Source: Clostridia bacterium
Lineage (GTDB): Bacteria > Bacillota > Clostridia > UBA1212 > UBA1255
Length of the DNA stretch: 32,651 bases
NCBI GenBank assembly: GCA_017935905.1
Contig: JAGBGO010000001.1
Span: 1-32,651 of the forward strand
Direction: 5' to 3'
In this document: piece after piece, positions 11,447 through 32,494 of the stretch
Layout: each line of letters begins with the position of its first letter
Position numbering within the stretch: the stretch's first letter is position 1
Notes under the pieces: model-generated
What the model was told of the DNA's origin: nothing
The model's input: the letters and a program-made list of their open reading frames with translations, nothing else
Database searches by the model: none
Translations under genes and position numbers: made by a program

Positions 11447-12181
11447 ATGAAGTCAGGAAGAATACGTTCTGTTGAAACTATGGGTTTAGTAGACGGACCG
11501 GGTATTCGCACCGTGATTTTTCTGCAAGGTTGCCATCTTCGCTGTAAGTTCTGCCATAACCCGGAGAGTTGGGCGGTAAATGGGGGAGAGGAAGTGGATG
11601 CGGAAACTTTATTTCAAAAGATACTGCGTTTTCGACCTTATTTTGAAAGAAGCGGTGGGGGTGTAACATTCTCCGGCGGAGAACCTTTGTTGCAACCGGA
11701 ATTCTTGCTGGAAATGCTGAAACGGTGCAAAACAGAGGGAATTCACACCTGTATCGATACTGCCGGCGTAGGCCTTGGACAGTATGACGAAATTCTTCGG
11801 TATACGGATTTGGTGCTGTACGACGTGAAAGCCCTTACCGAAGAAACCTACAAAACACTTTGCGGAAGAAGTATTGAAGAAACAGAACGTTTCCAAGAGG
11901 CCCTTCGCAAAGCGGGCACCAAAACCATTGTGCGTCAAGTGGTGATTCCCGGGTGGAATGATCAAGACGAATATATGGCGGCGCTCAAACAGTACATTGA
12001 AAGCAACATTCCCACAGCGATATCCGTGGAATTACTTCCGTATCACTTGCTGGGCGTGCATAAATATAAGACATTAGGGCTTCCGGAACCCATGCCGGGA
12101 ACGGAGGCTATGGATAAAGAAAGGGTAAAGGAATTGTATCAGAAATATTTTACCCGCACCACAATGAAAGAAGAGGAGTGA
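11447..12181 (+). CDS. pflA: Pyruvate formate-lyase activating enzyme
   Basis: This 244-residue radical SAM enzyme installs the glycyl radical on PflB. Its cluster-binding Cys29, Cys33 and Cys36 lie in [15 protein letters not shown], and [11 protein letters not shown] is the SAM-contacting GGE motif. The N-terminal [17 protein letters not shown] is diagnostic of the PFL activase group. GAGGAGG at 11436-11442 precedes the ATG. It comes before pflB, with five bases between stop and start; the pflB-pflA order is more common elsewhere. Both genes lie under the ZTP riboswitch. Activity requires anaerobic conditions. Confidence 0.95.
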
Positions 12182-12186
12182 GCAAC

Positions 12187-14418
12187 ATGGCAGAAAGAAA
12201 ACCTTTTAACGGCGGCAGATGGCAAGAAAAGGTCGACGTCCGGGATTTCATACAGAGAAACTACACGTTATATGAAGGCGACAGTTCTTTCTTGGCAGGC
12301 CCTACAAAGAAAACAGAGAAAGTGTGGGCTCGGTGCGCCCAGTTGTTGCAAGAAGAAATTGCAAAAGGCGGCGTGTTGGATGTAGAAACGGACAAGATTT
12401 CCGGAATCTGCAATTTTGAACCCGGATATATTGATCAAGAGAATGAAGTTATCGTTGGTCTTCAGACGGACAAACCCTTAAAGCGTATGGTAAATCCTTA
12501 TGGTGGTATGCGCATGGCGGAAGCAAGCCTCAAAGCCTACGGATATACCCTTCGTGAAGACGTGAAGCAATGTTTCACCGAATACAGAAAGACCCACAAC
12601 CAGGGCGTATTTGATGCTTATCCGGCATCTGTGCGCAAGGCACGACACGCAGGCCTTATTACGGGACTTCCCGATGCCTACGGCCGCGGTCGTATTATCG
12701 GAGATTACCGTCGCGTAGCTTTGTATGGTACGGAACGTTTGATTCAGCAAAAACGGGAAGATCTGGATGCTTTGGATTTGGAGATGAAGGACTCTGTGAT
12801 TCAGCTTCGGGAAGAAGTTTCCATGCAGATTAAGGCACTCCAAGATATGGAGAAGATGGCAGACAGCTACGGCGTGGATATTCGCAAGCCTGCTGTTTCT
12901 GCAAAGGAAGCGGTACAAGCTGTTTATATGGGTTATTTGGCCGGTATTAAAGAGAACAACGGCGCTGCAACTTCTTTAGGAAGAACTTCTACGTTCTTGG
13001 ATATTTATATTCAGAGAGATTTGGAAGCCGGTATCATTACCGAGGCAGAGGCTCAGGAATTGATTGACCAATTTATTATTAAATTGCGATTGGTTCGTCA
13101 TTTGCGTACGCCGGAATATAACGAACTTTTTGGCGGCGATCCTACGTGGGTAACGGAATCCGTTGGCGGTATGAGTGTAAACGGAAAGCCTTTGGTTACC
13201 AAAAACTCCTTCCGTTATTTGCATACGCTGATCAATTTGGGCACCTCGCCGGAACCTAACTTGACTATTTTGTGGGATGAGCGTTTGCCGGAGAATTTCA
13301 AACAATACTGTGCGGAAATTTCTATTAAGACCGATGCGGTGCAATACGAGAATGATATGGTAATGCGTCCTATTTACGGAGACGATTACGCGATTGCTTG
13401 CTGCGTATCTGCGATGACCTTAGGTAAACAAATGCAGTATTTTGGTGCCCGCTGTAACTTGGCAAAGAGTTTACTCTACGCCATTAACGGCGGTCGGGAT
13501 GAGCTTTCCGGAGAAGTGGTCGTGCCCAATATTCCGGAACTCAAGAATAAGGAAATGCTGGACTTCGATGAAGTTTGGCAGAATTACAAGAAGGTTCTTT
13601 CCAATGTGGCGTGGATTTACGTGAAAGCCAACAACATTATCCACTATATGCATGATAAGTATGCGTATGAAGCCAGCCAATTGGCGCTTCATAAGACGGA
13701 TCCGGAGAAGTTGATGGCCTTTGGTGTTGCGGGGATCTCCGTAGCAGCTGACAGCTTGTCTGCGATTAAGTTTGCTAAAGTGCGGGCAATTCGTAACGAG
13801 CAGGGTATTGCCGTGGATTTCGAAACCGTAGGGGAATTTCCTAAATACGGTAACGATGATGATCGGGTAGATTTGATCGCCGTGGAGATTGTATCGAAGT
13901 TTGCCCACGAACTTAAGAAACATCCTTTGCATCGGAATGCAAAGCACACTTTGTCTGTACTTACCATTACCAGTAACGTAACCTACGGTAAGAAGACCGG
14001 CACTACGCCGGATGGACGTAAGTTGGGCGAACCTTTAGCGCCCGGTGCAAATCCTATGCACGGTCGTGATCTTTCCGGCGCTTTGGCATCCTTGAATTCC
14101 GTTGCCAAGATTCCCTACCGGGGCGTGTGCCAAGACGGTGTTTCTAACACCTTCTCCATTGTGCCGGAAGCTCTGGGTAAAGACGAAGACCAGCGCCGTC
14201 GTAATTTGGTTAATATCTTGGATGGATATTTTGATCAAGGCGCGCAGCACTTAAACGTGAACGTAATGAATCGGGAGATGCTGATGGATGCCTACGAACA
14301 TCCGGAGAAATACCCTATGCTCACCATTCGTGTGTCCGGCTATGCGGTGAACTTCCACCGTTTGTCCAAGGAGCAGCAGTTGGAGGTTATTTCCAGAACG
14401 TTCCACGAGAGTGTGTAA
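12187..14418 (+). CDS. pflB: Pyruvate formate-lyase
   Basis: This 743-residue glycyl radical enzyme converts pyruvate and CoA to acetyl-CoA and formate in the cytosol. The catalytic cysteine pair is Cys405-Cys406 (IACCVSAM), and the radical-bearing residue is Gly718 in RVSGYAV, 26 residues from the C-terminus. I start at the ATG at 12187 ([10 protein letters not shown]), because GAGGAG at 12173-12178 is spaced correctly for it; a GTG at 12178 has no room for a ribosome site. Length and motifs are normal. A damaged, deleted relative of its C-terminal part lies at 17983-18213. Confidence 0.97.
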
Positions 14419-18693: not shown

Positions 18694-19185
18694 GTGGAAA
18701 TGCGTGCAAAAGTTTGTGGCTTTTTAGACGAATTAGGAATTGAATATACGTGTATGGAGCATGCTCCTGCCATGACTATGGAAGATTGCCGGGCGGTAGA
18801 CGAAGCGTTGGGCGTCAATATGTGTAAGAACTTGTTCTTGTGTAACCGGCAACAGACCAACTTCTATTTGTTGCTTATGCCCGGGGACAAGCCTTTTAAG
18901 ACTAAAGATTTGTCGGCGCAACTGGGCGTGGCGCGTCTTTCTTTTGGAACGCCGGAACACATGCAGGCTATGCTGGGCGTGACGCCGGGATCCGTCAGCG
19001 TGTTGGGCCTTTTGCAAGACCAGGATCATCAGGTTCGCCTGCTCATTGACGAAGACGTGCTGAAAGGGGAGCGTTTTGCTTGCCATCCCTGCGACAATCG
19101 GGCAAGCTTATGTTTCTCAACGAAAGATTTAATGGACAAAATTCTGCCGGCCCTTGGGCACAGTCCCAAATTGGTGCAGTTGTAA
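18694..19185 (+). CDS. YbaK/ProX-type aminoacyl-tRNA editing protein
   Basis: This 163-residue cytosolic protein resembles the free-standing trans-editing deacylases related to the ProRS insertion domain. These hydrolyse mischarged tRNA, typically Ala-tRNA(Pro) or Cys-tRNA(Pro). Family marks are EHAPAMTMEDC near the N-terminus, CKNLFLCNRQ with the conserved Lys, FYLLLMPGDKPFKTKDL, LGVTPGSVSVLGLL and the closing HPCDNRASLCFSTKDL. I start at the GTG at 18694, with AGGTG at 18681-18685. The earlier ATG at 18676 would lie at the transcript start without a ribosome site. The ZIP gene follows 19 bases later without a visible promoter, so both may share a transcript. Confidence 0.88.
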   Translation: MEMRAKVCGFLDELGIEYTCMEHAPAMTMEDCRAVDEALGVNMCKNLFLCNRQQTNFYLLLMPGDKPFKTKDLSAQLGVARLSFGTPEHMQAMLGVTPGSVSVLGLLQDQDHQVRLLIDEDVLKGERFACHPCDNRASLCFSTKDLMDKILPALGHSPKLVQL

Positions 19186-19204
19186 GAAGGGGAGCGTGAC
19201 GGGA

Positions 19205-19959
19205 ATGGAAATGGTATTATTAACAGCCTTGGGCGTGGGGGGCGCCACTATATTCGGATCTATTTTAGGATTTGCTTTTAAGAAAATCTCCCACCGATTC
19301 AGCGACATTGTGCTGGCGTTTGCGGCGGGCGTCATGATGGCGGCCGCGGTGCTGGGATTGATTCTGCCCTCTGTAGAGTATGGAGGAAAATACGGATTGC
19401 TTGTAACCGTGGCGGGGATTTTTACCGGTGCCTTGGCCTTAAACTTAATTGATAAACTGGTGCCGCATCTTCATAAACTGGTGGGTGCGGAAGATGAACG
19501 CCACCAAGGGAACGCCAACTTAAGTAAAGTGCTATTATTTGTGCTGGCCATTGCCATTCACAACTTGCCGGAAGGCATTGCCGCCGGTGTGGGATTCGGA
19601 TCCGGCAACACGTCGGAAGCCCTTTTGATCGCGGGGGGATTGCCCTTCAAAACATTCCTGAGGGAATGGTCATCATCGGGCCTATGCTGGCAGCGGGCAT
19701 CAAACCCAAGAAAGTATTCATTTGCGCTATGATTACGGGATTGGTGGAAGTGGTGGGAACCTTGATCGGGTATTTTGCGGTGACCGTGTCACAAGCCATT
19801 TTACCCTTTGCACTGGCATTTGCCGGCGGCACCATGCTCTACGTAGTAAGCGATGAAATGATTCCCGAAACCCACGCCCACGGAAGCCAGCGGGGGGCGA
19901 CGTACGCACTGTTGGTTGGATTTTGTGTAATGTTGGTGTCGGATGTGTTATTAGGGTAA
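19205..19959 (+). pseudogene. ZIP-family metal transporter, frameshifted
   Basis: Two overlapping frames together encode a complete ZIP transporter (GufA/ZupT type) of about 250 residues. The first frame runs from the ATG at 19205 (AGGGGAG at 19188-19194) through the metal-site motif HNLPEGIAAGVG. It goes astray after GGGGGG at 19633-19638. With seven G the frame would continue as GGIALQNIPEGMVIIGPML, restoring the second metal motif NIPEG, and reads on to TAA at 19957. Eight hydrophobic helices are expected in the intact protein, moving zinc or other divalent metals into the cytosol. The one-base loss in a G run could be a true mutation, a phase-variable tract or a sequencing error. Confidence 0.85.
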
Positions 19960-20065: not shown

Positions 20066-22201
20066 ATGAACTGCAAAAGACTTTTTACGATGACAGTGGT
20101 ACTGGCTTTGTGCTTGTCTACGCTAGGCAGCACCGCTACGCGTGCATCCGGCAAGACGAACGTGGGCAGCATCAAACCCGATACGTGGGCAGCGGTGGAC
20201 GCTTTGGGCCGTACGGTGAGTTCCTACAGTGAAGTTGGCGATACCCGTGGGAACAAGACCGTGGCATTGTTCTTCCACAATTGGCACGATTACTGGGCCA
20301 CGAATCCGGCCAGAAATATTACACAAATTATGAACCAATACCCGGAAGCTCGGAATGACTTTGATCACCCTGCTTGGGAAGGGGGAGACGGTTCTTTGTA
20401 TTTCTGGAATGAACCGCTTTGGGGCTATTACAGAACTACCGATAAATACGTACTCCGAAAACAAGCAGAACTGCTGGCGGACGCCGGTGTAGACGTCATC
20501 TTTTTGGATCTGACCAACGGAAATGAAATTTTCAAGTCCGGGTACCGGGCAATCTTTAAGGAATTTCAAGCAGCGAAAGCTGACGGTGTGGATGCGCCGA
20601 AGATTTCTTTCTTCCTGAATCCCTATTTGAATCCCACGGATGAAGCCTTTCAGGTAGAGCAGATCACGGAGATTTATGAGGATATTTTCAAGGAAGAAAA
20701 ATACAAAGATATGTGGTTTTATTGGGAAGGAAAACCTATGATTATGGCCAGACAGTCTATTTTGAAGATGTCGGATCCCACCCAAAAAGCCATTCGGAAT
20801 TTCTTTACTTTCCGTGACGTGGATATGAACTACTATGCAGATGAATGGCCGATTGCTAAGAAGACGTGGGGTTGGTGCTCCGTATATCCTCAAGGTAAGT
20901 TTGGTGTGCGAGAAGACGGCAGTGTGGAAATGATGTGTGTCAGTCCTGCACAGAATGCAGATAAGACTTTTACCGATATTACCCATACTTTGTATGATAT
21001 GGAGAAGGCATTGGTTTCTATGAACGATCCGCAGAACCGCGCGCAAGGTCGTGGTTACGCCAAAGGGGATTATTCCTATCTCTATACTTATATGAATAAG
21101 ACGGTTACTGTGAATCAGCAGACGAAAGACGCCTATTTATATGGCCTTAACTTCCAACAGCAGTGGGATTATGCATTGTCTGTGGACCCGGATTTGATCT
21201 TTGTAACGGGTTGGAATGAATTGACTGCCCAGCGTCATTCGGAATGGCAGGGTGCGGAGAATGGATTCCCGGATAATTTTAATGATGAATTCAGCCGAGA
21301 TCTTGAACCATCCAAGGGTGTTTTGAAGGATAATTTCTATTACCAAATGGTAAGTAATATTCGTCAATTCAAAGGCGTTGGGAAACCGGAGGCTGCAACT
21401 TCTGACAAGAACGTAGGGAAGACCATTGATATTCACAGTTCTAAAGATCAGTGGGCGGACGTAAAACTTTCTTTTGACCACTACGTGGGTAGCACCCAGA
21501 ACAGAAAATACCCCGGTTATTCCGGTAAAACGTACGTATACGACACTATGCGTAACGATATTGTGACGTCGAAAGTGGCGTACGATGAAGAATATATCTA
21601 CTTTATGGTAGAAACCAAAGATGATTTGTCCGCTTCTTCCGATAGCGGCTGGATGCGCTTGCTTTTGGACACGGATCCCACGGGCGTTACGCCGAACTGG
21701 GAAGGCTTTGAGTACGTTATCAACCGAGTTTCTCCTACGGATGGCAACAGCGTGATTGAGAAGTCTAAAGGTGGCTGGGATTTTGCACAAGTTGGAACGG
21801 CGAAGTTCTCCGTTTCCGGTAAAAGGCTTCAAATTGCGGTTCCCAGAAGCGCCGTTGCCCTTACGGATATGAATAAAATTTCTTTCAACTTTAAGTGGGC
21901 AGATAATACCGTTAATCCTGATACCAAGAAGGACAGCGGTGACATTATGGACTACTATTTGTACGGTGACGTCGCCCCGGGCGGACGGTTTATGTTTGCG
22001 TTTAATACGGAAGGTACCACTTACGAACCAAAGCCTACAACGATGCCGGCTTCCACCTCCGGTACTATGCCGGGCCGGAACGACACAGATGGTGGACTTC
22101 CCGCTTACGTATGGTGGATTGTAGGCGCAGGTGCAACTTTAGTCGTTGCCATGGGTGTTGTGGTGGTGCTCGTATTGAAGAAGGACAATAAGAAAGCCTA
22201 A
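20066..22201 (+). CDS. Secreted, anchored GH99/WbsX-like protein with CBM9-like domain (copy A)
   Basis: This 711-residue surface protein has a signal peptide at residues 1-28. A barrel-like domain (about 35-445) follows, with NWHDYW, WGYYRTTDKYVLRKQAELL, DVIFLDLTNG (Asp148), DMWFYWEGKP and FVTGWNELTAQR (Glu385). The order Q-aelA-G, yWeGKP, then WNE resembles GH99 endo-mannosidases and WbsX proteins, where the last motif reads NAWNEWAEG. Residues about 448-655 resemble CBM9 (RNDIVTSKVAYDEEYIYFMV, then LLLDTDP). A Pro/Thr/Ser linker, one helix (682-704) and a KKDNKK tail would anchor it to the membrane, facing outward. AAAAAGGAG precedes the ATG. The catalytic residues are guesses from motif position; no substrate is visible. 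Confidence 0.75.
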   Translation: MNCKRLFTMTVVLALCLSTLGSTATRASGKTNVGSIKPDTWAAVDALGRTVSSYSEVGDTRGNKTVALFFHNWHDYWATNPARNITQIMNQYPEARNDFDHPAWEGGDGSLYFWNEPLWGYYRTTDKYVLRKQAELLADAGVDVIFLDLTNGNEIFKSGYRAIFKEFQAAKADGVDAPKISFFLNPYLNPTDEAFQVEQITEIYEDIFKEEKYKDMWFYWEGKPMIMARQSILKMSDPTQKAIRNFFTFRDVDMNYYADEWPIAKKTWGWCSVYPQGKFGVREDGSVEMMCVSPAQNADKTFTDITHTLYDMEKALVSMNDPQNRAQGRGYAKGDYSYLYTYMNKTVTVNQQTKDAYLYGLNFQQQWDYALSVDPDLIFVTGWNELTAQRHSEWQGAENGFPDNFNDEFSRDLEPSKGVLKDNFYYQMVSNIRQFKGVGKPEAATSDKNVGKTIDIHSSKDQWADVKLSFDHYVGSTQNRKYPGYSGKTYVYDTMRNDIVTSKVAYDEEYIYFMVETKDDLSASSDSGWMRLLLDTDPTGVTPNWEGFEYVINRVSPTDGNSVIEKSKGGWDFAQVGTAKFSVSGKRLQIAVPRSAVALTDMNKISFNFKWADNTVNPDTKKDSGDIMDYYLYGDVAPGGRFMFAFNTEGTTYEPKPTTMPASTSGTMPGRNDTDGGLPAYVWWIVGAGATLVVAMGVVVVLVLKKDNKKA

Positions 22202-22206
22202 ATTTT

Positions 22207-24249
22207 ATGACGAAAAGAAATTGTTTCATACTTTGGGTATTCATTGCGATATTTTGCAGTTCCTTTGTTTCCGTTCCCGTTACGGCCTCAGAGCTGCCAT
22301 TAAGAAGCGTACGTCCGGATACGTGGGCAGCGGTGGACGGTTTGGGCAGAACGGTCTGCGATTACAGTCAGGTTGGCGACGTTCGTAAGGACAAATTTGT
22401 GGGGATGTTTTATTGGAGCTGGCACAATCATTTTTCCGGCTCTCCTGCAAGAAACGTGTCCCAAATCATCAGCCAATATCCGGAAGCACGAAATGATTTT
22501 GATCATATTGCTTGGGAAGGTACGCCGGCATGGACACCTTTCTTCTGGAATGAACCTATTTGGGGCTATTACAGAACGACGGATCGCTACGTCTTACGCA
22601 AACAGGCGGAACTTTTGGCGGATGCCGGTGTGGATGTGATTTTCTTCGATTGTACAAACGATACGTACACGTTCAAAGATGCGTATCAAAGTGTATTCCG
22701 GGAATTCAAGCGGGCAAAAAATGAGGGCGTTCGTGTCCCTCAAATTGCTTTCGTGCTCAATTTGTACAGTGATGCGAATGCTGCCGTGCAGTTAAGAGAT
22801 CTCTATGGGGCCATTTATAAGAATAGAAACTTTGAAGATTTGTGGTTTTACTGGGAAGGCAAACCTTTGATCGTTTCCAGAAGTGCCGGTCTCAAACGAA
22901 GCAATTCTTTGGATCGGGAAATATTGGAGTTCTTTACTTTTCGTAAAAACCCCCGAGATTATTACTTAGACAGCACTGATTATTCGGATAAATTATGGGG
23001 ATGGCTTTCTGTTTATCCCCAAACTAAATTTGGTGTTCGAGAAGACGGAACGGTGGAACAAATGTGCGTCAGTACAGCGCAGAATTCTAATCAAACCGAA
23101 GTTGTGGCAATGAATGATTACTTAAACAGAGCCCAAGGTCGTGGCTTTGCGAAAGGCAATTATTCATATCAATACACCTATGCGAACCGAACCATTACGG
23201 TTCGTAAGGATATGCAAGATGCCTACTTGTACGGTCTTAATTTCCAGCAACAATGGGATTATGCCCTTGAAGTGGATCCGGATTTCATCTTTGTAACCGG
23301 GTGGAATGAATTTGTGGGCCAACGTCAGGAACTGTGGAAGGGTACGGAAGGTGCTTTTACCGATAATTTCAATGATGAATTCAGCCGGGATATCGAACCG
23401 TCTAAGGGTATTTTGAAAGATCATTTCTACTATCAATTAGTTGATAACATTCGTAAATTCAAAGGCGTGGGAAAGCCGGAAACGGCGACCGCGGACAAGC
23501 AGGTGGGTAAGACCATTGATATTTTCAGTTCTGAGGATCTATGGTCGGATATTTCTCTGTCATTTGATCACTATACCGGCAGCACAAAAGCACGAAACAG
23601 TGCAGGCTACAAAGACTTGATCTATCGCTATGATACCATGCGCAACGATATTGTAACGTCGAAAGTGGCGTATGATACAGAATATATTTATTTTATGGTA
23701 GAAACGGCAAAGGATTTGTCACCTTCTTCCGATCACGCTTGGATGCGGCTTCTTCTGGACACGGATCCCACGGGCGTTTCCCCGAACTGGGAAGGCTTTG
23801 AGTACATTTTGAACCGCACTTCTCCTACGGGAAATGAAGCAGTTGTGGAGCGGTTTACCGGGGGCTGGAAGTTTGAACAAGCGGGTACCGCCACGTTCTC
23901 GGTGTCGGGTAAAAGGCTTCAACTTGCCGTTCCCAGAAGCGCCGTTGATCTTACGGATATGAGCAAGATTTCTTTCAACTTTAAGTGGGCCGATAACACG
24001 ATTGATCCTAAAACCACGCAAGATAGCGGTGATATTCTAGATTACTATTTGTATGGCGATGTCGCCCCCGGCGGACGGTTTATGTTTGCGTTTAATACGG
24101 AAGCATCTATGGATGCGTCTCCGGTTTCAAACGCGTCCGGAAGCGGTGTTCCTGCCTACGTGTGGTGGATTGTCGGCGTGTGTGCAGTGTTCGCCGTTGG
24201 GCCAAGCATTTTATATATTTGCAGAAGGTGTTTGAAGAAAACGGAATAA
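22207..24249 (+). CDS. Secreted, anchored GH99/WbsX-like protein with CBM9-like domain (copy B)
   Basis: This 680-residue paralogue of copy A starts five bases after it. No strong ribosome site precedes the ATG, so translation is probably coupled. A signal peptide (1-28, ending PVTAS) is followed by the barrel with FVTGWNEFVGQR (Glu368), the CBM9-like domain, a short Ser/Gly linker and a membrane helix ending CRRCLKKTE. The stretch equivalent to copy A's LDLTNG reads FDCTNDTYT, so Leu and Gly of that motif are changed while the Asp remains. A segment of about 15 residues before the NDYLNRAQGRG motif is shorter than in A. Several blocks in the CBM9-like part match copy A almost base for base. 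Confidence 0.75.
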   Translation: MTKRNCFILWVFIAIFCSSFVSVPVTASELPLRSVRPDTWAAVDGLGRTVCDYSQVGDVRKDKFVGMFYWSWHNHFSGSPARNVSQIISQYPEARNDFDHIAWEGTPAWTPFFWNEPIWGYYRTTDRYVLRKQAELLADAGVDVIFFDCTNDTYTFKDAYQSVFREFKRAKNEGVRVPQIAFVLNLYSDANAAVQLRDLYGAIYKNRNFEDLWFYWEGKPLIVSRSAGLKRSNSLDREILEFFTFRKNPRDYYLDSTDYSDKLWGWLSVYPQTKFGVREDGTVEQMCVSTAQNSNQTEVVAMNDYLNRAQGRGFAKGNYSYQYTYANRTITVRKDMQDAYLYGLNFQQQWDYALEVDPDFIFVTGWNEFVGQRQELWKGTEGAFTDNFNDEFSRDIEPSKGILKDHFYYQLVDNIRKFKGVGKPETATADKQVGKTIDIFSSEDLWSDISLSFDHYTGSTKARNSAGYKDLIYRYDTMRNDIVTSKVAYDTEYIYFMVETAKDLSPSSDHAWMRLLLDTDPTGVSPNWEGFEYILNRTSPTGNEAVVERFTGGWKFEQAGTATFSVSGKRLQLAVPRSAVDLTDMSKISFNFKWADNTIDPKTTQDSGDILDYYLYGDVAPGGRFMFAFNTEASMDASPVSNASGSGVPAYVWWIVGVCAVFAVGPSILYICRRCLKKTE

Positions 24250-24325
24250 AATTTTCGATAAAAATCCGTTTTACCCGCCAAAATCGGACAAAATTCGAAA
24301 AAATCGAAAATTTGAGCCGTTTTTT
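24249..24325. repeat. Structured AT-rich intergenic segment
   Basis: AAATTTTCGAT (24249-24259) and ATCGAAAATTT (24303-24313) are perfect 11-base inverted arms. Between them TCCGTTTT and AAAATCGGA form a second bulged stem. A T6 run follows at 24320-24325, so it may act as a partial terminator after copy B. Confidence 0.5.
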
Positions 24326-24349
24326 GGAAAAGGTGGGAAGGAGAGGTAT

Positions 24350-26209
24350 ATGATGAATAAGGAAATTCAGGTCCGTCCCGATACGTGGACGGCTGTAGAC
24401 GGACTTGGCAGAACGCTAAGCGATTACAAGCGAGCAGGAGAAAAGCGGAAAGATAAATTCGTGGGATTGCTCTTTTGGAATTGGCACGATTATTTTTCAG
24501 TTGCTGTTCCTCGGAATGTTTCGGAAATTATGGCAAAATATCCGGAAGCCCGCAATGATTTTGATCATCCCGGTTGGGAGGGAACGAAGGAATGGACTCC
24601 TTTTTTATGGAATGAACCGATTTGGGGCTATTATAAAACCTCGGACACTTACGTGCTCCGCAAACAGATTGAAATGATTGCCAGTGCCGGGATCGATATG
24701 ATCTTTATTGATCTGACCAACGGATCCGAAACGTTCCCATCCGGTTATCAAGCCATTCTACAAGCCTTGGCAGAAGCCAAAGCAGACGGCATTCCTGCAC
24801 CGCAGGTTTCTTTCTTCTTAAATCCTTATTTGAATCCTACGGATGAGAAGAATACGGTGATCCAGTTAAAAGACCTTTACGAAAACATTTACAAAGACGG
24901 CCACTACCAAGACCTGTGGTTCTGCTGGGACGGAAAACCCATGTTGATGTCCCGTTGTGACGTGCTGAATGAAGAAGACCCTACGGAGAAGGCAATCAAA
25001 GAATTTTTCACCTTCCGCAGCGTAGGAATGGGCTACTATGCCGCCGATACAAAGATTTCCGACAACACTTGGGGCTGGTGCTCTGTCTATCCGCAAACCA
25101 AGTTTGGCGTGCGGGAAGACGGAAGCGTAGAGCAAATGTGTGTGAGCTGCGCGCAAAATGCCGATAAGAATTTCACCGACGTTACCTATACCGTATACGA
25201 TATGGTAAACGCATTGGTTTGTATGAACGATATTCATAACCGAGCCCAAGGTCGGGGCTATGCAAAAGGGGATTATGCGTACCAATATACCTACGGCGGT
25301 AAAACGATTACCGTAACCGAGGATAGGAAGGACGCCTTCTTGTACGGCCTTAACTTCCAACAACAGTGGGATCGGGTTTTGGAGATTGATCCTGATTTTG
25401 TATTTATTACCGGTTGGAATGAATTGGTGGCACAGCGCCGTTTAGAATGGCAAGGTACGCCGGGAGGTTTCCCGGATAACTTCGACGATGAGTTCAGTCG
25501 GGATATTGAGCCTTCTAAGGGTATTTTGAAGGACCATTTCTACTGCCAGATGGTAGACAATATTCGAAAATTTAAAGGGATCAGCAAACCGGAAACGGGC
25601 TGTAACGGGGAGAAAACCATTGACGTTCACGCCGGGGCAGACCAGTGGGCAGACGTAACCCCTTCTTTTAACACCTATCCCGGCAGCACCAAGCCCAGAG
25701 ATATTGCGGGGTATAATGGTATTTATTATAAGTACGATACCCTTCGAAATGACATCGTGGCAGCTAAAGTGGCATACGATGCCGACTTTATCTATTTCAT
25801 GGCGGAGACTAAAGAAAAATTGACGCCGGCGTCGGATCCCGCATGGATGCGTTTGCTCCTGAACACAGATGCATCCGGAAAGACGCCGAACTGGGAGGGC
25901 TTTACGTATATGATTAACCGCGTTTCGCCACGGGGAGACGAAGCGGTTATTGAGAAGTCTACCGGTGGCTGGAATTTTGAGCAGGTGGGAACGGCTAAGT
26001 TCTCTGTGCAGGGTAAAATGCTTCAAATTGCAGTGCCCAGAAGTGCCATAGGCCTTATATGCAATCCTTTGAAGTTTAACTTTAAGTGGGCAGATAACAC
26101 GTGGGAACCGGGTGCAGAGACCGACAGCGGTGATATTTTAGACTTCTACCGGTACGGCTCCATGGCACCGGTGGGACGGTTTGCTTTTGCGTATGAAATA
26201 TATAAATAA
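24350..26209 (+). CDS. Cytosolic GH99/WbsX-like protein with CBM9-like domain (copy C)
   Basis: This 619-residue paralogue has neither a signal peptide nor a membrane anchor. It begins almost at once with VRPDTWTAVDGLGRTLSDY, the point where the mature part of the other copies begins, and ends with the CBM9-like domain (FAFAYEIYK). Barrel motifs are kept: NWHDYF, IDLTNGSE, DLWFCWDGKP (Asp in place of Glu in this motif) and FITGWNELVAQR (Glu358). AAGGAGAGG at 24338-24346 serves either the ATG at 24350 or the one at 24353. It would act inside the cell, perhaps on imported fragments. It is the most diverged of the four copies, especially near LICNPLKFNFKW, where it is shortened. Confidence 0.75.
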   Translation: MMNKEIQVRPDTWTAVDGLGRTLSDYKRAGEKRKDKFVGLLFWNWHDYFSVAVPRNVSEIMAKYPEARNDFDHPGWEGTKEWTPFLWNEPIWGYYKTSDTYVLRKQIEMIASAGIDMIFIDLTNGSETFPSGYQAILQALAEAKADGIPAPQVSFFLNPYLNPTDEKNTVIQLKDLYENIYKDGHYQDLWFCWDGKPMLMSRCDVLNEEDPTEKAIKEFFTFRSVGMGYYAADTKISDNTWGWCSVYPQTKFGVREDGSVEQMCVSCAQNADKNFTDVTYTVYDMVNALVCMNDIHNRAQGRGYAKGDYAYQYTYGGKTITVTEDRKDAFLYGLNFQQQWDRVLEIDPDFVFITGWNELVAQRRLEWQGTPGGFPDNFDDEFSRDIEPSKGILKDHFYCQMVDNIRKFKGISKPETGCNGEKTIDVHAGADQWADVTPSFNTYPGSTKPRDIAGYNGIYYKYDTLRNDIVAAKVAYDADFIYFMAETKEKLTPASDPAWMRLLLNTDASGKTPNWEGFTYMINRVSPRGDEAVIEKSTGGWNFEQVGTAKFSVQGKMLQIAVPRSAIGLICNPLKFNFKWADNTWEPGAETDSGDILDFYRYGSMAPVGRFAFAYEIYK

Positions 26210-26213
26210 TTTG

Positions 26214-26242
26214 TTTACAAAGAAAATGTAATTTGGTAAAAT
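26214..26242 (+). promoter_or_regulatory. Promoter before the Ig-like surface protein
   Basis: TTTACA (26214-26219) and TAAAAT (26237-26242) are separated by 17 bases. This could start a second transcript covering 26278-32494. Confidence 0.65.
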
Positions 26243-26277
26243 AACCGAAACGCACAATTCAAAAAGGAGAGAAGAGA

Positions 26278-27837
26278 ATGAAAAGAGTTGTTTCAGTTTT
26301 ATTGGTAGTTGTATTCTGCATGACGCTGCTTCTTCCTTTCACCGTAAACGGTGCGGAGGAGTACAGTAAATTGGGTAAATCCACGTACGTATACGGCGAA
26401 TATATGGAGCTTATTTATAAGTTTGATGATAGAGACGCTACCCGTTGGGTTTGTATTTACAAAGGATCTGTGGCCACCGGGAATATGGTCTACGTTTATC
26501 CGGCAACGGAACCGGCTATTTCGGGTTATTACCTTCCCCAGCAAGGCGTGCCGGTAAACGGATATCAGAAGAGCAATGCGTTCCAGCCCGGCAGTTACAT
26601 TGCCAAAGTGATGTACATTCCTGTAGGCGGAAATTATATGGATGCCAATAACTTTGCAACGGGTACGAAGAGTGATATCACGTTTTCTTTTACCGTAACG
26701 GCAAACAGTGCTACCACGCCTACCCTTTCCATTGCCAACCGTGAAATTGCAAAAGGCGGCAATTTGGTTGTGGCGTATTCCGGCATTTCTTATGACTTGG
26801 ACAGCCGTTCTCTCAACTTGGTGGTGACCAACCAAAACGGCAAAACGGTGAAGACCCGTGCTTTGTTTAATGTGAACCATTATGCCGGCATTTCCGGAGA
26901 AATGACCATTGCTTTAACCGGTATGGATGCAGGTAAGTATAAGGTTGCTTTGGTGTGTGACGATAAAGATTACACCATCAGCCAGGCTCCTATTGAAATT
27001 ACGGTGACCGAACAATCTGCCGGCAGTACGGAAGGTGTCTTCCCGGAAGATATTTTTAAGAATAAGGATATTTGCGGACGGTACTTTGCCAATGCGGACA
27101 AAGACGGCGTTCAATATGCGGTTGAAGACGGTACGTACGTAATGACAGTTCCCCACCACAAAGGTCATGATTACCTGTATACGTGGGAAGCTATTCCTTA
27201 CGATACGTTCACGGTATATTTTGATTTCCTGCTGCACATCGCAGAAGATTATGATTCTCAGATTGCAGACGAAATGGACTTCTTGTTCGGTGTGTCGGAA
27301 GACGGAAAGACCCATCATCAGTTGACCATGGGTAACCAATCCGGTGCCTTGTCTGTGGGTCACTGGAAGCGGGAAGGTGCTGAGAGCGCCTACGTGCCTT
27401 ATTCCGATGACAGTTATTTCTATGATTTGTATGAAGAAGAAATGTGGTACTCCATTGCCGTACAATTTACAAAAGAAGGCGTTACCGTATTCTTAGAGGA
27501 CGAAGAAATTCTTACTTTGACCGACACGGCAAATTGTGTAGGTGCGCAAGGCAGAATCGGTCTTCGGGGCGGTTCTCAGGGCGGCTGGAAGATTAAGAAT
27601 CTGAAAGTGGCAGAAGGCTTGTTTGAAGCCATGCCGGATGCAACGGACGCACCGACAACCCAAACTCCTGCGGCGACCAATACGCCTATTCCGAACACTC
27701 AAGCCCCTGCACCCACGGAAGCAACCAAGGGTGACAACGGCGGGAACTATGCATGGATTATTGTAGCAGTCGTTGTTGTTGTTGTAGCGGCTTGCGCAGT
27801 TGGTACCATTTTGTTGATTGTTAAGAAAAAGAAATAA
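26278..27837 (+). CDS. Secreted, anchored Ig-like and concanavalin-like surface protein
   Basis: This 519-residue surface protein has a signal peptide (1-25, ending TVNGA). Two beta-rich Ig-like units follow (about 28-142 and 147-243, the second closing with PIEITVTEQ). Residues about 250-450 resemble a concanavalin/LamG-type jelly roll: YTWEAIPYDTFTVYFDFLL, MWYSIAVQFTKEGVTVFLED and GRIGLRGGSQGGWKIKNLKV. A linker rich in Pro, Thr and Ala (about 452-485), one membrane helix and KKKK complete it. It has no catalytic motif I recognise and is probably a glycan-binding partner of the barrel proteins. Three bases separate it from the next gene. Confidence 0.7.
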   Translation: MKRVVSVLLVVVFCMTLLLPFTVNGAEEYSKLGKSTYVYGEYMELIYKFDDRDATRWVCIYKGSVATGNMVYVYPATEPAISGYYLPQQGVPVNGYQKSNAFQPGSYIAKVMYIPVGGNYMDANNFATGTKSDITFSFTVTANSATTPTLSIANREIAKGGNLVVAYSGISYDLDSRSLNLVVTNQNGKTVKTRALFNVNHYAGISGEMTIALTGMDAGKYKVALVCDDKDYTISQAPIEITVTEQSAGSTEGVFPEDIFKNKDICGRYFANADKDGVQYAVEDGTYVMTVPHHKGHDYLYTWEAIPYDTFTVYFDFLLHIAEDYDSQIADEMDFLFGVSEDGKTHHQLTMGNQSGALSVGHWKREGAESAYVPYSDDSYFYDLYEEEMWYSIAVQFTKEGVTVFLEDEEILTLTDTANCVGAQGRIGLRGGSQGGWKIKNLKVAEGLFEAMPDATDAPTTQTPAATNTPIPNTQAPAPTEATKGDNGGNYAWIIVAVVVVVVAACAVGTILLIVKKKK

Positions 27838-27839
27838 TT

Positions 27840-30425
27840 ATGGATACACGATTACAAGATATTTTACACCATAGAGAGGGAAGTTATCTCTTCCCTTTCT
27901 TCTGGCAACGAGGCGATCATACGGCAGCAATTCCGGAACAGATTGAACAAATTTACCGGAGCGGTTGTCGCGCGTTTTGTGTTGAATCTAAATCCCATCC
28001 TGACTTCTGTGGAGAAGGCTGGTGGCGGGATATGGATCTTATCCTTGCAGAGGCTTCCAAACGGGATATGCAAGTTTGGATTTTGGATGACGATAAATTC
28101 CCAACCGGCCATGCGGCGGGGATGATTGAGAAGAAATATCCTCATTTACGTCAATGGCACGTCATTGAACGGCATATTGACGTAGCAGGTCCTTTGGATG
28201 ATGCTTCCGTCTTGGCAAAGGAAGTTTCGGACCAAGAGGCAATTCTTCTCGGTGCATACGCGTATAAGCGTCTTCCGGATGTCAGCGAAGCCTGTGCTTA
28301 CGAGGCCATTGACTTAACCGATTGCGTACAGAACGGTTTACTTTACTGGAACGTGCCGGAAGGTGTATGGCGAATTTTCTTCTATTATCAATCTCGCCTT
28401 GGGGGTTTCAACAACTATATGGACATGATTTCCAAAGAATCGGTGGCGGTCTTACTGGAAAGCGTGTACGAGCCCCATTATCAGCGATATGGAAAATACT
28501 TTGGAACAACGATCGTAGGTTTCTTCTCGGACGAGCCGGCTTTCGTCAATCAAATGTACGAACAGCCGCGCATTGACTACGGTTTCTATGAGAAAAGAAT
28601 CGGCACAAAGGGGCTTTCCTTACCTTGGAATGAAAACGTTCGAAGAAAGATGCAGGAGAAACTGGGCTTTGATCCCCTTCCGCATCTGAATCTTCTTTGG
28701 TATGAAGATGCAAAACACGGTGATGACCAGGGCGAAATCCGTTTTGCCTACATGGACGCGGTAACAAATTTGTACAGTGAATGTTTCAGTAAACAATTAG
28801 GCGATTGGTGCCGTGCCCACGGGGTGCTGTACACGGGTCACATCATTGAAGATATGGGTTCCCATTGCCACTTGCATCACAGCGCCGGTCACTATTTCCG
28901 CAGTATGGCAGGACAAGATATTTCCGGTGTGGACGTGGTGATGCATCAAATTTTGCCGGGGATGGCCCATTATTTCCATACGGCGTCGGCGCAAGGATTG
29001 GCAGACGGTGAATTCTTCCATTACGTCTTGGCGAAAATGGGTGCTTCCGCAGCCCATCTTTACCCCCAGATGAAAGGCCGCGCTATGTGCGAGCTTTTTG
29101 GTGCCTATGGCTGGGGACTGGATACACCTACTATGAAATATATTGCAGACGGTATGCTGGTTCGAGGCATCAATCACTTCGTACCCCACGCCTTTAGTGC
29201 ACGGTACCCGGATTACGAATTCCCGCCTCATTTTTATGCCGGCGGCCATAACCCCAGTTTTGAAGGTTTTTCCTGTTTAATGGGGTATATGAACCGTGCG
29301 GCTCACTTGTTAAGTGATACAAAACACGTGGCAAACGCTGCGGTGCTGTACAATGCAGCCGGGGAGTGGACCGGACGCTACCGGGAAGCTATGCCGATGC
29401 AGCCTATTGTAACGCGGCTTTACGACGCCCATATTGACTACGATATTGTACCTATGGACTGTTTGCAAGAAGCCAAGGTGACGCAAAGTAAACTTTTCAT
29501 CAATGAAGAAAGTTTTGATTGCTTAATCGTACCGCACTCGGATCATTTGCCCCTTGAATTGCAGCAAATTCTGAAATCTTTGCACGATAGAGGACTTCCT
29601 GTATGGTTCTTTGACGGTCTTCCGGAGAATTGTATTTTCCCCGGCACGGAAATGGCGCCGGAGGCGTTGGTTCCTACTATGCAAGCGCGCGGTATGACGG
29701 ACGTGCAGGTTTCCGGTGACTATCCCTTCTTGCGCATTTACCACTGCGTACGGGATGGTCAGGATATTTACATGTTCTTTAATGAAGATATGCACCATTT
29801 TGTGGATACCACTTTAGTGCTACCTTCCAAGGGCGCGTATACCCGGGTAGATTTAATGGAGGAACGCTATAGCGCAGGGGAGACGACAGACGGACATTTT
29901 ACTCTCCGCCTTTATCCCAACCAGTCCCAAATCGTGATTTTCGGCGACAACACAGGCACTAAACCTGAATGCGACCTTCCCGAAGGTACACCGCTGCACC
30001 CTGCCTTCCGCCTGTCTTTGGCAAGCGCGGATTCCTTGGAGCATTTTGAGAAAGTGGGTGCGTTCGAAGATTTCTTCAACGTGACGGGGAAGGACGGCAA
30101 GCCCGATTTCTCCGGTAAAATGAAATACGAATTTTCTTTCACGGTGCCGGAGGGTGCGACGCATGCTTTCTTGGATTTAGGTCGGGTAGGACAGAATGCC
30201 GCCCTTACGCTAAACGGTAAAGATTTAGGCATGCGCATAAGCCCGCCATACCGGTTTGATATTACCCATGCAATGAAAGTGGGAGAGAACCAAGCGGAGG
30301 TTATTGTATCTAATACACTGGCCCATCAAATGCGCTTAGAATTATATTCACAATTCATCCCGTTGGGACCTTCGGGACTTCTTGGCGATATGCGATTGAT
30401 TTTAATGGAGAAAGGGAGTTTATAA
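27840..30425 (+). CDS. GH106-like (alpha-L-rhamnosidase-type) protein, cytosolic
   Basis: This 861-residue protein lacks a signal peptide or membrane helix. The N-terminal two thirds look like the barrel of large GH106-type enzymes: PFFWQRGDHT, QVWILDDDKFPTGHAAG, VGFFSDEPAF (Asp231-Glu232), YTGHIIEDMGSHCH (Glu337), GADG-type loops and RGINHFVPHAFSARYPD. The C-terminal 130 residues form a beta-sandwich of sugar-binding type (LDLGRVGQNAALTLNGKDLG and ISPPYRFDI). In such enzymes a pair of acidic residues removes terminal rhamnose. Rhamnosidase activity here is only a family-level guess. The gene follows the Ig-like protein after two bases and shares one base with copy D (TAATG), so the three are one transcript. 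Confidence 0.7.
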   Translation: MDTRLQDILHHREGSYLFPFFWQRGDHTAAIPEQIEQIYRSGCRAFCVESKSHPDFCGEGWWRDMDLILAEASKRDMQVWILDDDKFPTGHAAGMIEKKYPHLRQWHVIERHIDVAGPLDDASVLAKEVSDQEAILLGAYAYKRLPDVSEACAYEAIDLTDCVQNGLLYWNVPEGVWRIFFYYQSRLGGFNNYMDMISKESVAVLLESVYEPHYQRYGKYFGTTIVGFFSDEPAFVNQMYEQPRIDYGFYEKRIGTKGLSLPWNENVRRKMQEKLGFDPLPHLNLLWYEDAKHGDDQGEIRFAYMDAVTNLYSECFSKQLGDWCRAHGVLYTGHIIEDMGSHCHLHHSAGHYFRSMAGQDISGVDVVMHQILPGMAHYFHTASAQGLADGEFFHYVLAKMGASAAHLYPQMKGRAMCELFGAYGWGLDTPTMKYIADGMLVRGINHFVPHAFSARYPDYEFPPHFYAGGHNPSFEGFSCLMGYMNRAAHLLSDTKHVANAAVLYNAAGEWTGRYREAMPMQPIVTRLYDAHIDYDIVPMDCLQEAKVTQSKLFINEESFDCLIVPHSDHLPLELQQILKSLHDRGLPVWFFDGLPENCIFPGTEMAPEALVPTMQARGMTDVQVSGDYPFLRIYHCVRDGQDIYMFFNEDMHHFVDTTLVLPSKGAYTRVDLMEERYSAGETTDGHFTLRLYPNQSQIVIFGDNTGTKPECDLPEGTPLHPAFRLSLASADSLEHFEKVGAFEDFFNVTGKDGKPDFSGKMKYEFSFTVPEGATHAFLDLGRVGQNAALTLNGKDLGMRISPPYRFDITHAMKVGENQAEVIVSNTLAHQMRLELYSQFIPLGPSGLLGDMRLILMEKGSL

Positions 30426-32494
30426 TGAATTGCAGAAGATTATTACTTATGGCGTTTGTGCTGATTTTTAGCCTGTCGTTGGTGACCGTACCGGCTATGG
30501 CAGAGGATGCGGCAAATACGCCGAATATCCGTCCGGATACCTGGGCGGCAGTGGACGGACTTGGCAGAACCGTCAGCGGTTACAGCGACGTAGGCGGCAC
30601 CCGTGCCAATAAAACGGTGGGCATTTTCTTCCACAACTGGCACGATTACTGGTCCGGATCCCCTGCCAGAAATTTGACTGAAATTATGGCAAAATATCCG
30701 GAAGCACGAAATGACTACGACCATCCCGCATGGGAGAATTCCGGCTATGCCCCTTATTTCTGGGACGAACCCATTTGGGGTTATTACAGAACCACGGATG
30801 CTTACGTCATTCGCAAACAAGCAGAACTTTTGGCGGATGCCGGGGTAGACGTGATTATTCTCGATCTGACCAACGGTTCCGATACGTTCAAAAGCGGTTA
30901 TCAAAAACTTTTCAAGGAATTTCAGGCGGCTATGGCTGAAGGTGTGAACGTACCTCAAATTACTTTCTATTTGAACCCGTACGTTAATCCTACGGATAAT
31001 GAGAATTCCATCAAACAAATTCGGAGTATTTATGAGACCATTTACAAAGACGGTAAATACGAAGACGTGTGGTTCTATTGGGAAGGCAAACCCTTCATCA
31101 TTGCCCGGGACTTCTTGTTAGACAAGAATGACGCTACGGAGAAGGCGATCAGTGAATTCTTCACGTTCCGCAATCCGGCTACCGGCGGATACTATGAGGC
31201 GGAAACTAAATTCTCTGCTAAACAGTGGGGCTGGTGTTCCGCTTATCCTAATACCAAATACGGCGTGCGGAATGACGGCACGGTAGAGGAAATGTGTGTC
31301 AGTATGGCACAAAACTACGATCAAAATTACACCGGCGATGATTTCTCAAAGGGTTTGATCGCTATGAACGACTACTTAAACAGAGCCCAGGGTCGTGGAT
31401 ATGCCAAAGGAAATTATTCTTATCAGTATACGTACAAGAATAATACAATTACGGTAAATCAACAGACCAAAGATGCTTATTTGTACGGCCTTAACAGCCA
31501 GCAACAATGGGATTACGTTTTAGAAGTGGATCCGGACTTTATTTTCGTAACAGGCTGGAATGAACTGATTGCCAATCGGTGGGAAACGTTCCAGGGTACG
31601 GAGAATGCCTTCCCAGACAACTACAGCCCTGAATACAGCCGGGATATTGAACCTTCTAAAGGTGTTTTGAAAGACCATTACTATTATCAGTTGGTGGAGA
31701 ATATCCGTCGTTTCAAAGGCGTTTCCAAACCGGAGGCTGCAACAGCTGACAAAAACGTTGGAAAGACCGTTGATATTAACAGCGATAGCGACCAGTGGGC
31801 GGACGTATCCCTTTCTTTCGACCATTATACCGGCAGCACTAAGAACCGTAAATATCCGGGTTATGCCGGAAAATTCTATGAATACGCCACTATGCGCAAC
31901 GATATTGTGACGTCGAAAGTGGCTTATGATGCGGACAATATCTACTTTATGGTAGAAACGGCAGCCGACTTGTCGCCGTCTTCGGACAGCGGCTGGATGC
32001 GGCTTTTGATTGACACGGATTCCACGGGCACTGCAGCAAACTGGGAAGGGTTTGAGTATATCTTAAATCGCACTTCTCCTAATGGTTCCGACGTGATGGT
32101 GGAGCGTTCCACCGGCGGCTGGAATTTTGAGCAAGTGGGCACCGCCAAGTTCACTGTAGCGGGTAAAAGGCTTCAAATTGCTGTTCCCAGAAGTGCTTTG
32201 GGCTTAACGGATTTCAGTCGGTTGTCTTTCAACTTTAAGTGGGCGGACAACACCGTAGATCCTACCACCAAGCAAGATAGCGGCGACATTATGGATTACT
32301 ATCTGTACGGAGACGTGGCACCCGGCGGACGTTTTATGTTCGCATTTGATACGATGGAGTCCACGTATACGCCTCCGGCTCCCGACGCGTCCGGAAGCAG
32401 CATTCCTGCCTACGTATGGTGGGTTGTCGGTGCAGGTGCCGCCTTGATTGCCGTTATGGGTGTGATCGTAGCGGTTGTGCTAAAGAAAAAATAA
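30425..32494 (+). CDS. Secreted, anchored GH99/WbsX-like protein with CBM9-like domain (copy D)
   Basis: This 689-residue paralogue is closest in layout to copy A. A signal peptide (1-26, ending PAMA) is followed by a barrel with NWHDYWSG, VIILDLTNGSD, DVWFYWEGKP and FVTGWNELIANR (Glu380). The CBM9-like domain ends at PGGRFMFAF. A short linker, the helix beginning AYVWWVVGAG and a KKK tail complete it. Translation is coupled to the GH106-like gene through TAATG, with AAAGGGAG upstream. The end of the gene is followed by an IS element, with no terminator visible before it. Confidence 0.75.
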   Translation: MNCRRLLLMAFVLIFSLSLVTVPAMAEDAANTPNIRPDTWAAVDGLGRTVSGYSDVGGTRANKTVGIFFHNWHDYWSGSPARNLTEIMAKYPEARNDYDHPAWENSGYAPYFWDEPIWGYYRTTDAYVIRKQAELLADAGVDVIILDLTNGSDTFKSGYQKLFKEFQAAMAEGVNVPQITFYLNPYVNPTDNENSIKQIRSIYETIYKDGKYEDVWFYWEGKPFIIARDFLLDKNDATEKAISEFFTFRNPATGGYYEAETKFSAKQWGWCSAYPNTKYGVRNDGTVEEMCVSMAQNYDQNYTGDDFSKGLIAMNDYLNRAQGRGYAKGNYSYQYTYKNNTITVNQQTKDAYLYGLNSQQQWDYVLEVDPDFIFVTGWNELIANRWETFQGTENAFPDNYSPEYSRDIEPSKGVLKDHYYYQLVENIRRFKGVSKPEAATADKNVGKTVDINSDSDQWADVSLSFDHYTGSTKNRKYPGYAGKFYEYATMRNDIVTSKVAYDADNIYFMVETAADLSPSSDSGWMRLLIDTDSTGTAANWEGFEYILNRTSPNGSDVMVERSTGGWNFEQVGTAKFTVAGKRLQIAVPRSALGLTDFSRLSFNFKWADNTVDPTTKQDSGDIMDYYLYGDVAPGGRFMFAFDTMESTYTPPAPDASGSSIPAYVWWVVGAGAALIAVMGVIVAVVLKKK

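Follow-up and report, generated by a model that had tools for sequence, protein, structure and literature searches.

A conserved six-gene cluster of a Clostridia bacterium encodes four barrel proteins of an unclassified GH71/GH99-superfamily clade

Results

A conserved gene cluster carries four paralogues of one family

We analysed a stretch of 32,651 nucleotides (the window) from a Clostridia bacterium, which is one whole contig (C48) of a draft genome of 1.88 Mb with 92% completeness, and focused on a gene cluster at 20066-32494. The cluster consists of six tightly packed genes, all on the plus strand, and four of them encode paralogues (copies A to D) that combine a GH99-fold barrel with a CBM9-like domain (Table 1). 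Inspection of the open reading frame coordinates confirmed this layout, as proposed in a first-pass annotation made from the DNA alone. The intergenic gaps are, in order, 5, 100, 68, 2 and -1 bp and, given such short distances (-1 to 100 bp), the six genes look like one operon. Copies A to D are mutually 60-68% identical across their length, in agreement with the earlier proposal of four paralogues with one anchored architecture, but the membrane anchor is found only in A, B and D and not in copy C. The start motif reads KPDTWAAVDALGRT in copy A, RPDTWAAVDGLGRT in copies B and D and RPDTWTAVDGLGRT in copy C.

The gene order A-C-Ig-GH106-D is kept in a second species from water buffalo caecum (L029), with protein identities of 69-79%, and the arrangement is therefore neither due to chance nor an assembly artefact. 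The contig ends 157 bases beyond copy D; in a related genome this copy is followed by an alanine symporter gene and a sugar-isomerase-like gene. A search of plasmid records gave no match. The locus is a real and conserved glycan-handling cluster, and probably an operon.

Table 1. Genes of the cluster and motifs of copy D, with positions in the window
Feature	Positions	Strand	Length (aa)	Description
Copy A	20066..22201	+	711	Signal peptide, GH99-fold barrel (~residues 36-445), CBM9-like beta-sandwich, C-terminal transmembrane helix with Lys tail
Copy B	22207..24249	+	680	Architecture as copy A, with signal peptide and C-terminal anchor
Copy C	24350..26209	+	619	Barrel and CBM9-like domain, without signal peptide or transmembrane helix; predicted cytosolic
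Surface protein	26278..27837	+	519	Signal peptide, immunoglobulin-like (Ig-like) region, concanavalin-like domain, C-terminal transmembrane helix with Lys tail
GH106-family protein	27840..30425	+	861	C-terminal jelly-roll domain, no signal peptide or transmembrane helix; predicted cytosolic
Copy D	30425..32494	+	689	Signal peptide, barrel, CBM9-like domain, C-terminal transmembrane helix
DLTNG	30863..30877	+		Copy D residues 147-151; motif located at the C-terminal end of a barrel strand
NELIAN	31559..31576	+		Copy D residues 379-384, with invariant N379-E380, aligned with BxGH99 E333
SRDIEP	31637..31654	+		Copy D residues 405-410, family-specific motif beyond a variable insert

The barrel is remotely homologous to GH99 and GH71 enzymes

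Single-sequence searches with copies A to D found nothing significant in Pfam or NCBIfam, nor, for copy A, in the PDB, and profiles were therefore needed. A family profile built from an alignment of 52 relatives gave strong PDB matches exclusively to GH99 chains (BxGH99, 4e-9; BtGH99, 2e-7; human MANEA, 9e-4), and the Pfam model of GH99 matches 15 of the 52 members, with a best E of 8.3e-8. AlphaFold produced confident models both for whole copy D (predicted local distance difference test, pLDDT, 91.1; predicted template modelling score 0.88) and for the copy A barrel (pLDDT 94.2). The fold search suggested by the first-pass annotation, carried out with Foldseek on the latter model, placed GH99 structures at all of ranks 1-36 (best 5e-7), followed by GH71 (1.5e-4). 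No solved structure among the homologues is closer than GH99. The barrel is a remote homologue in the GH99/GH71 superfamily, and the gathering cut-off of the GH99 model (PF16317, 33 bits) is reached by none of 29 genomes from the order.

In the Foldseek search with the whole copy D model, the CBM9 structures 7nwn and 7nwo appeared at ranks 43 and 47 (probability 0.99, E ~1e-3), which bears out the CBM9-like assignment made earlier for the C-terminal domain. Its sequence matches CBM9_1 (PF06452) weakly in 2 of 41 members (best E 2e-4), and its sequence profile finds no PDB match. The domain, in which several Trp residues are nearly invariant, can be called CBM9-like by its modelled fold, and is only hinted at as such by its sequence. 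In every copy examined it accompanies the barrel, rather than occurring as an exchangeable module.

One catalytic acid of GH99 is lost and a new acidic motif is gained

The EWHE motif of GH99 holds its two catalytic residues, E333 and E336 (BxGH99 numbers; PMC12394665, PMC11025385), and those of GH71 are the D-x-x-E pair D265 and E268 (PMC12394665). The equivalent of E333 is kept in 98 of 99 barrels, but the position of E336, occupied by Ala383 in copy D, holds Ala, Val, Met or another non-acidic residue across the family and never Glu or Asp. Indeed, neither acid occurs at +1 to +5 after the invariant Glu in any of 98 barrels, so both the EW[H/G]E and the D-x-x-E pair are missing. The scores of PDB variants against the family profile follow the same pattern: wild-type BxGH99 reaches 39.0-39.1 bits, E336Q 39.4 and E333Q ~35.0; the cost of about 4 bits for E333Q and of nothing for E336Q means that the profile treats E333 as a conserved residue and E336 as a missing one. 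The Glu of the FHLEPY strand of BxGH99 aligns with a variable position, which is Asn in 48 of 100 barrels.

The rest of the polar core is preserved. The WNE, GKP and DLTNG motifs pointed out in the first-pass annotation are present, the last in the form D(L/C)TN, and are nearly invariant in 100 distinct relatives, with D147 and N150 each kept in 99 of 100. More broadly, 98-99 of 99-100 barrels retain each of D147, N150, K222, E380, R406, D407, E409 and D417, a pattern suggestive of an active site. About a dozen core polar residues, E380 included, stay nearly invariant across barrels down to 27-30% identity. R406, D407 and E409 belong to a motif, SRDxE(P/M), that lies 18-45 residues beyond the invariant Glu in 96 of 98 barrels.

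A sister clade from the same genomes (L076, L080, L139-L168) is close by profile comparison (hhalign 2.9e-23) and shares DxTN, but it lacks the CBM9-like domain, keeps the (E/D)xxE pair in 30 of 31 members and has SRDxEP in 0 of 31. As this is the reverse of the pattern in the barrel family, losing the second acid and acquiring the loop motif go together. The residue pattern suggests, but does not prove, that the acid now missing is provided by the SRDxEP loop; a replacement by D147 alone is less likely, since DxTN also occurs in the sister clade, which retains the full pair.

Judged by its residues, the barrel family is not a member of GH99, the defining residue having been looked for and found absent. 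Within the GH71/GH99 superfamily it forms an unclassified clade, unnamed in Pfam and NCBIfam, and a literature search for this clade returned nothing. Loss of the acidic residues across the family had been named at the outset as a result that would speak against a novel system; with one of the two GH99 acids lost throughout and the other polar core kept, that claim becomes one of a distinct, rearranged clade and is not cancelled.

The family is expanded within one order

The source genome holds 16 family copies at E < 1e-20. Within its order the family occurs in 30 of 31 genomes, with 1-45 copies each, the highest numbers (up to 45) being reached in genomes of 2.6-2.8 Mb. At the level of the class it was found in 13 of 196 sampled genomes, beyond the order in two families only, and rare members appear in metagenome-assembled genomes labelled Armatimonadetes, Bacteroidaceae, Planctomycetes and Verrucomicrobiales. 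A phylogenetic tree resolved two separate expansions within the source genome, one with 9 copies and one with 6, together with one additional copy; A to D all fall in one expansion, and for C and D the water-buffalo caecum genome has counterparts within its version of the cluster. With 16 to 45 copies in small genomes, the family is probably central to the life of these bacteria.

Additionally, the group without a CBM9-like domain is itself expanded, with 12 matches in the source genome and 14 in its nearest relative, all below the Pfam GH99 cut-off. It is located in L139-L168 and on genome contigs C2, C15, C16, C29, C49, C70, C76 and C77.

Partner proteins, export signals and genomic context

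An N-terminal signal sequence and a C-terminal Lys-tailed helix are predicted in copies A, B and D and in the Ig/concanavalin-like protein, whose concanavalin-like domain has a 3-keto-disaccharide hydrolase fold (Pfam E 1.7e-4, below the cut-off). Copy C has neither signal peptide nor transmembrane helix, and the upstream sequence offers no start able to add a signal; it should be cytosolic, and by the same kind of prediction several other family copies also look cytosolic. The partner initially described as GH106-like belongs to GH106, scoring above the Pfam cut-off (PF17132, E 5.1e-15, 55.5 bits against 29), with a match that spans residues 154-588 only. GH106 is present in 24 of 29 genomes at 1-5 copies and does not scale with the barrel family (1-45 copies), and rhamnose was accordingly dropped as a general substrate of the family.

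Elsewhere, other copies lie near GH2, GH78-like, MGH1/GH63-like, sugar isomerase and Gfo/Idh genes, and some related copies bear a dockerin, a solute-binding domain or cell-surface repeats, a context that fits extracellular polysaccharide use. The cluster contains no AraC-type regulator, in line with the first-pass annotation, but such regulators recur with the family in 11 other loci, often in divergent orientation.

Three of these loci deserve separate mention. In L037 (4504-7884, minus strand) a family member is fused to an ABC-type extracellular solute-binding domain (residues ~713-1036), and L040 has a protein of similar length. A member in L035 (7959-10421, plus strand) carries a type I dockerin, and some relatives may enter cellulosome-like complexes. 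L077 (contig C42), which is like the cluster in kind, holds two distant copies, a cupin-like gene, a weak melibiase-like gene and several signal-bearing proteins, at least one of them with a Laminin_G domain.

In other parts of the window, a ZIP-family metal transporter gene (19154-19959) is split by a frameshift into a first part at 19154-19732 and a C-terminal part in another frame at 19666-19959, which may point to an error in the assembly or to a broken gene. Positions 11447-14418 encode a pyruvate formate-lyase-type glycyl-radical enzyme and its radical S-adenosylmethionine activase.

Discussion

Proposed function and alternatives

On balance, we consider it fairly likely that the cluster is a glycan-handling system in which surface-anchored and cytosolic enzymes with a rearranged active site cleave glycans. 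Copies A, B and D would sit on the cell surface, held by their C-terminal membrane helix, where they and the Ig/concanavalin-like protein would bind a polysaccharide and cleave within its chain. The fragments would then be imported, and copy C and the GH106-family protein would act on them in the cytosol, the latter probably taking off a terminal alpha-L-rhamnose or some similar residue. Within the barrel, E380 of copy D would be retained as the base, the second Glu, usually the proton donor, would have been swapped for a small or hydrophobic residue, and the new donor would most likely be an acid of the SRDxEP loop, D407 before E409, with D147 of DxTN as an alternative. More tentatively, and with odds that we place short of even, the family would be an undescribed glycoside hydrolase family whose catalytic acid has moved to the inserted loop, with a new active-site arrangement, probably a new linkage specificity, and a place among the largest gene families of an uncultured gut order.

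Several observations weigh against a glycan-cleaving system. The cluster itself contains no transporter gene, the majority of copies elsewhere are solitary, with no further glycan-degrading genes beside them, and the GH106 partner is confined to this one locus and has not expanded with the family. Moreover, loss of a catalytic Glu is also expected of a non-catalytic glycan-binding protein. The barrels might be non-cutting surface lectins in which the CBM9-like domain adds a second binding site, the expansion reflecting the different glycans recognised, which we regard as unlikely but as the most serious of the alternatives. The proton-donor position has lost its acid in all 98 barrels, a solute-binding domain is joined to some copies, and there is a predicted precedent in fish CMANEAL, which lost E404 of the GH99 pair and was proposed to be a lectin (PMC11025385). 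However, pockets adapted to different ligands should vary, and the dozen core polar residues do not; nor does a cytosolic location, as predicted for copy C and several others, make much sense for a surface lectin. If the proteins are active enzymes, they would represent a glycosidase superfamily relocating its catalytic acid, with the sister clade in the same genomes as a ready control; if not, a glycosidase fold would have been turned into a large lectin repertoire.

The other explanations are far less probable. Fold, detectable sequence homology and the shared GKP and NE motifs would be compatible with ordinary GH99 endo-alpha-1,2-mannosidases or mannanases that target N-glycans or yeast mannan, but we rejected this very improbable reading on the missing second Glu and on the failure of every genome of the order to pass the Pfam cut-off; the variable position facing the FHLEPY-strand Glu also speaks against it. 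The first-pass annotation had suggested a peptide-linked or host glycan as substrate, and a close relative (L029) does come from an animal gut. We found no evidence for this, and its probability is slight: sulfatase-family genes are few (2 in the source genome), with one per genome in the order being ~800 aa long, the size of lipoteichoic acid synthases, the cluster has no host-glycan enzyme gene, relatives carry dockerin or solute-binding domains, and the family reaches genomes labelled Armatimonadetes, Planctomycetes and Verrucomicrobiales. Least probable of all is that these are WbsX-like proteins making the cell's own surface polysaccharide. WbsX proteins carry a WNEW motif, and the early placement near GH99/WbsX holds for its GH99 half, while PF14307 matches 1 of 52 members weakly (E 0.049). 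This candidate was rejected because the barrel profile is nearer GH99 (15 of 52 members matched, to 8e-8); three of the four copies are also predicted to be exported and anchored, and the cluster has no glycosyltransferase or polysaccharide export gene.

Comparison with known systems

The locus would work like a polysaccharide-degrading surface system. With GH99 (BxGH99, BtGH99, human MANEA; PF16317) the family shares the barrel fold, GKP and the NE motif with the first catalytic Glu (E333/E404), and it differs in the absence of the second (E336/E407), the SRDxEP insert, DxTN on the second strand, the obligate CBM9-like domain and scores below the cut-off. GH71 (AnGH71C, PDB 9fnf) is alike in its barrel fold and in having a beta-sandwich after the barrel; the second acid of its own D-x-x-E pair is absent here too, and its Foldseek similarity is below that of GH99. 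The C-terminal domain resembles CBM9 in fold, as described above. The GH99_GH71_like models of NCBI CDD, such as cd11575, reported for Prevotella PmGH99 (PMC13421300), cover the same unnamed zone between GH71 and GH99, but PmGH99 has DYGE with both acids, unlike the barrel family.
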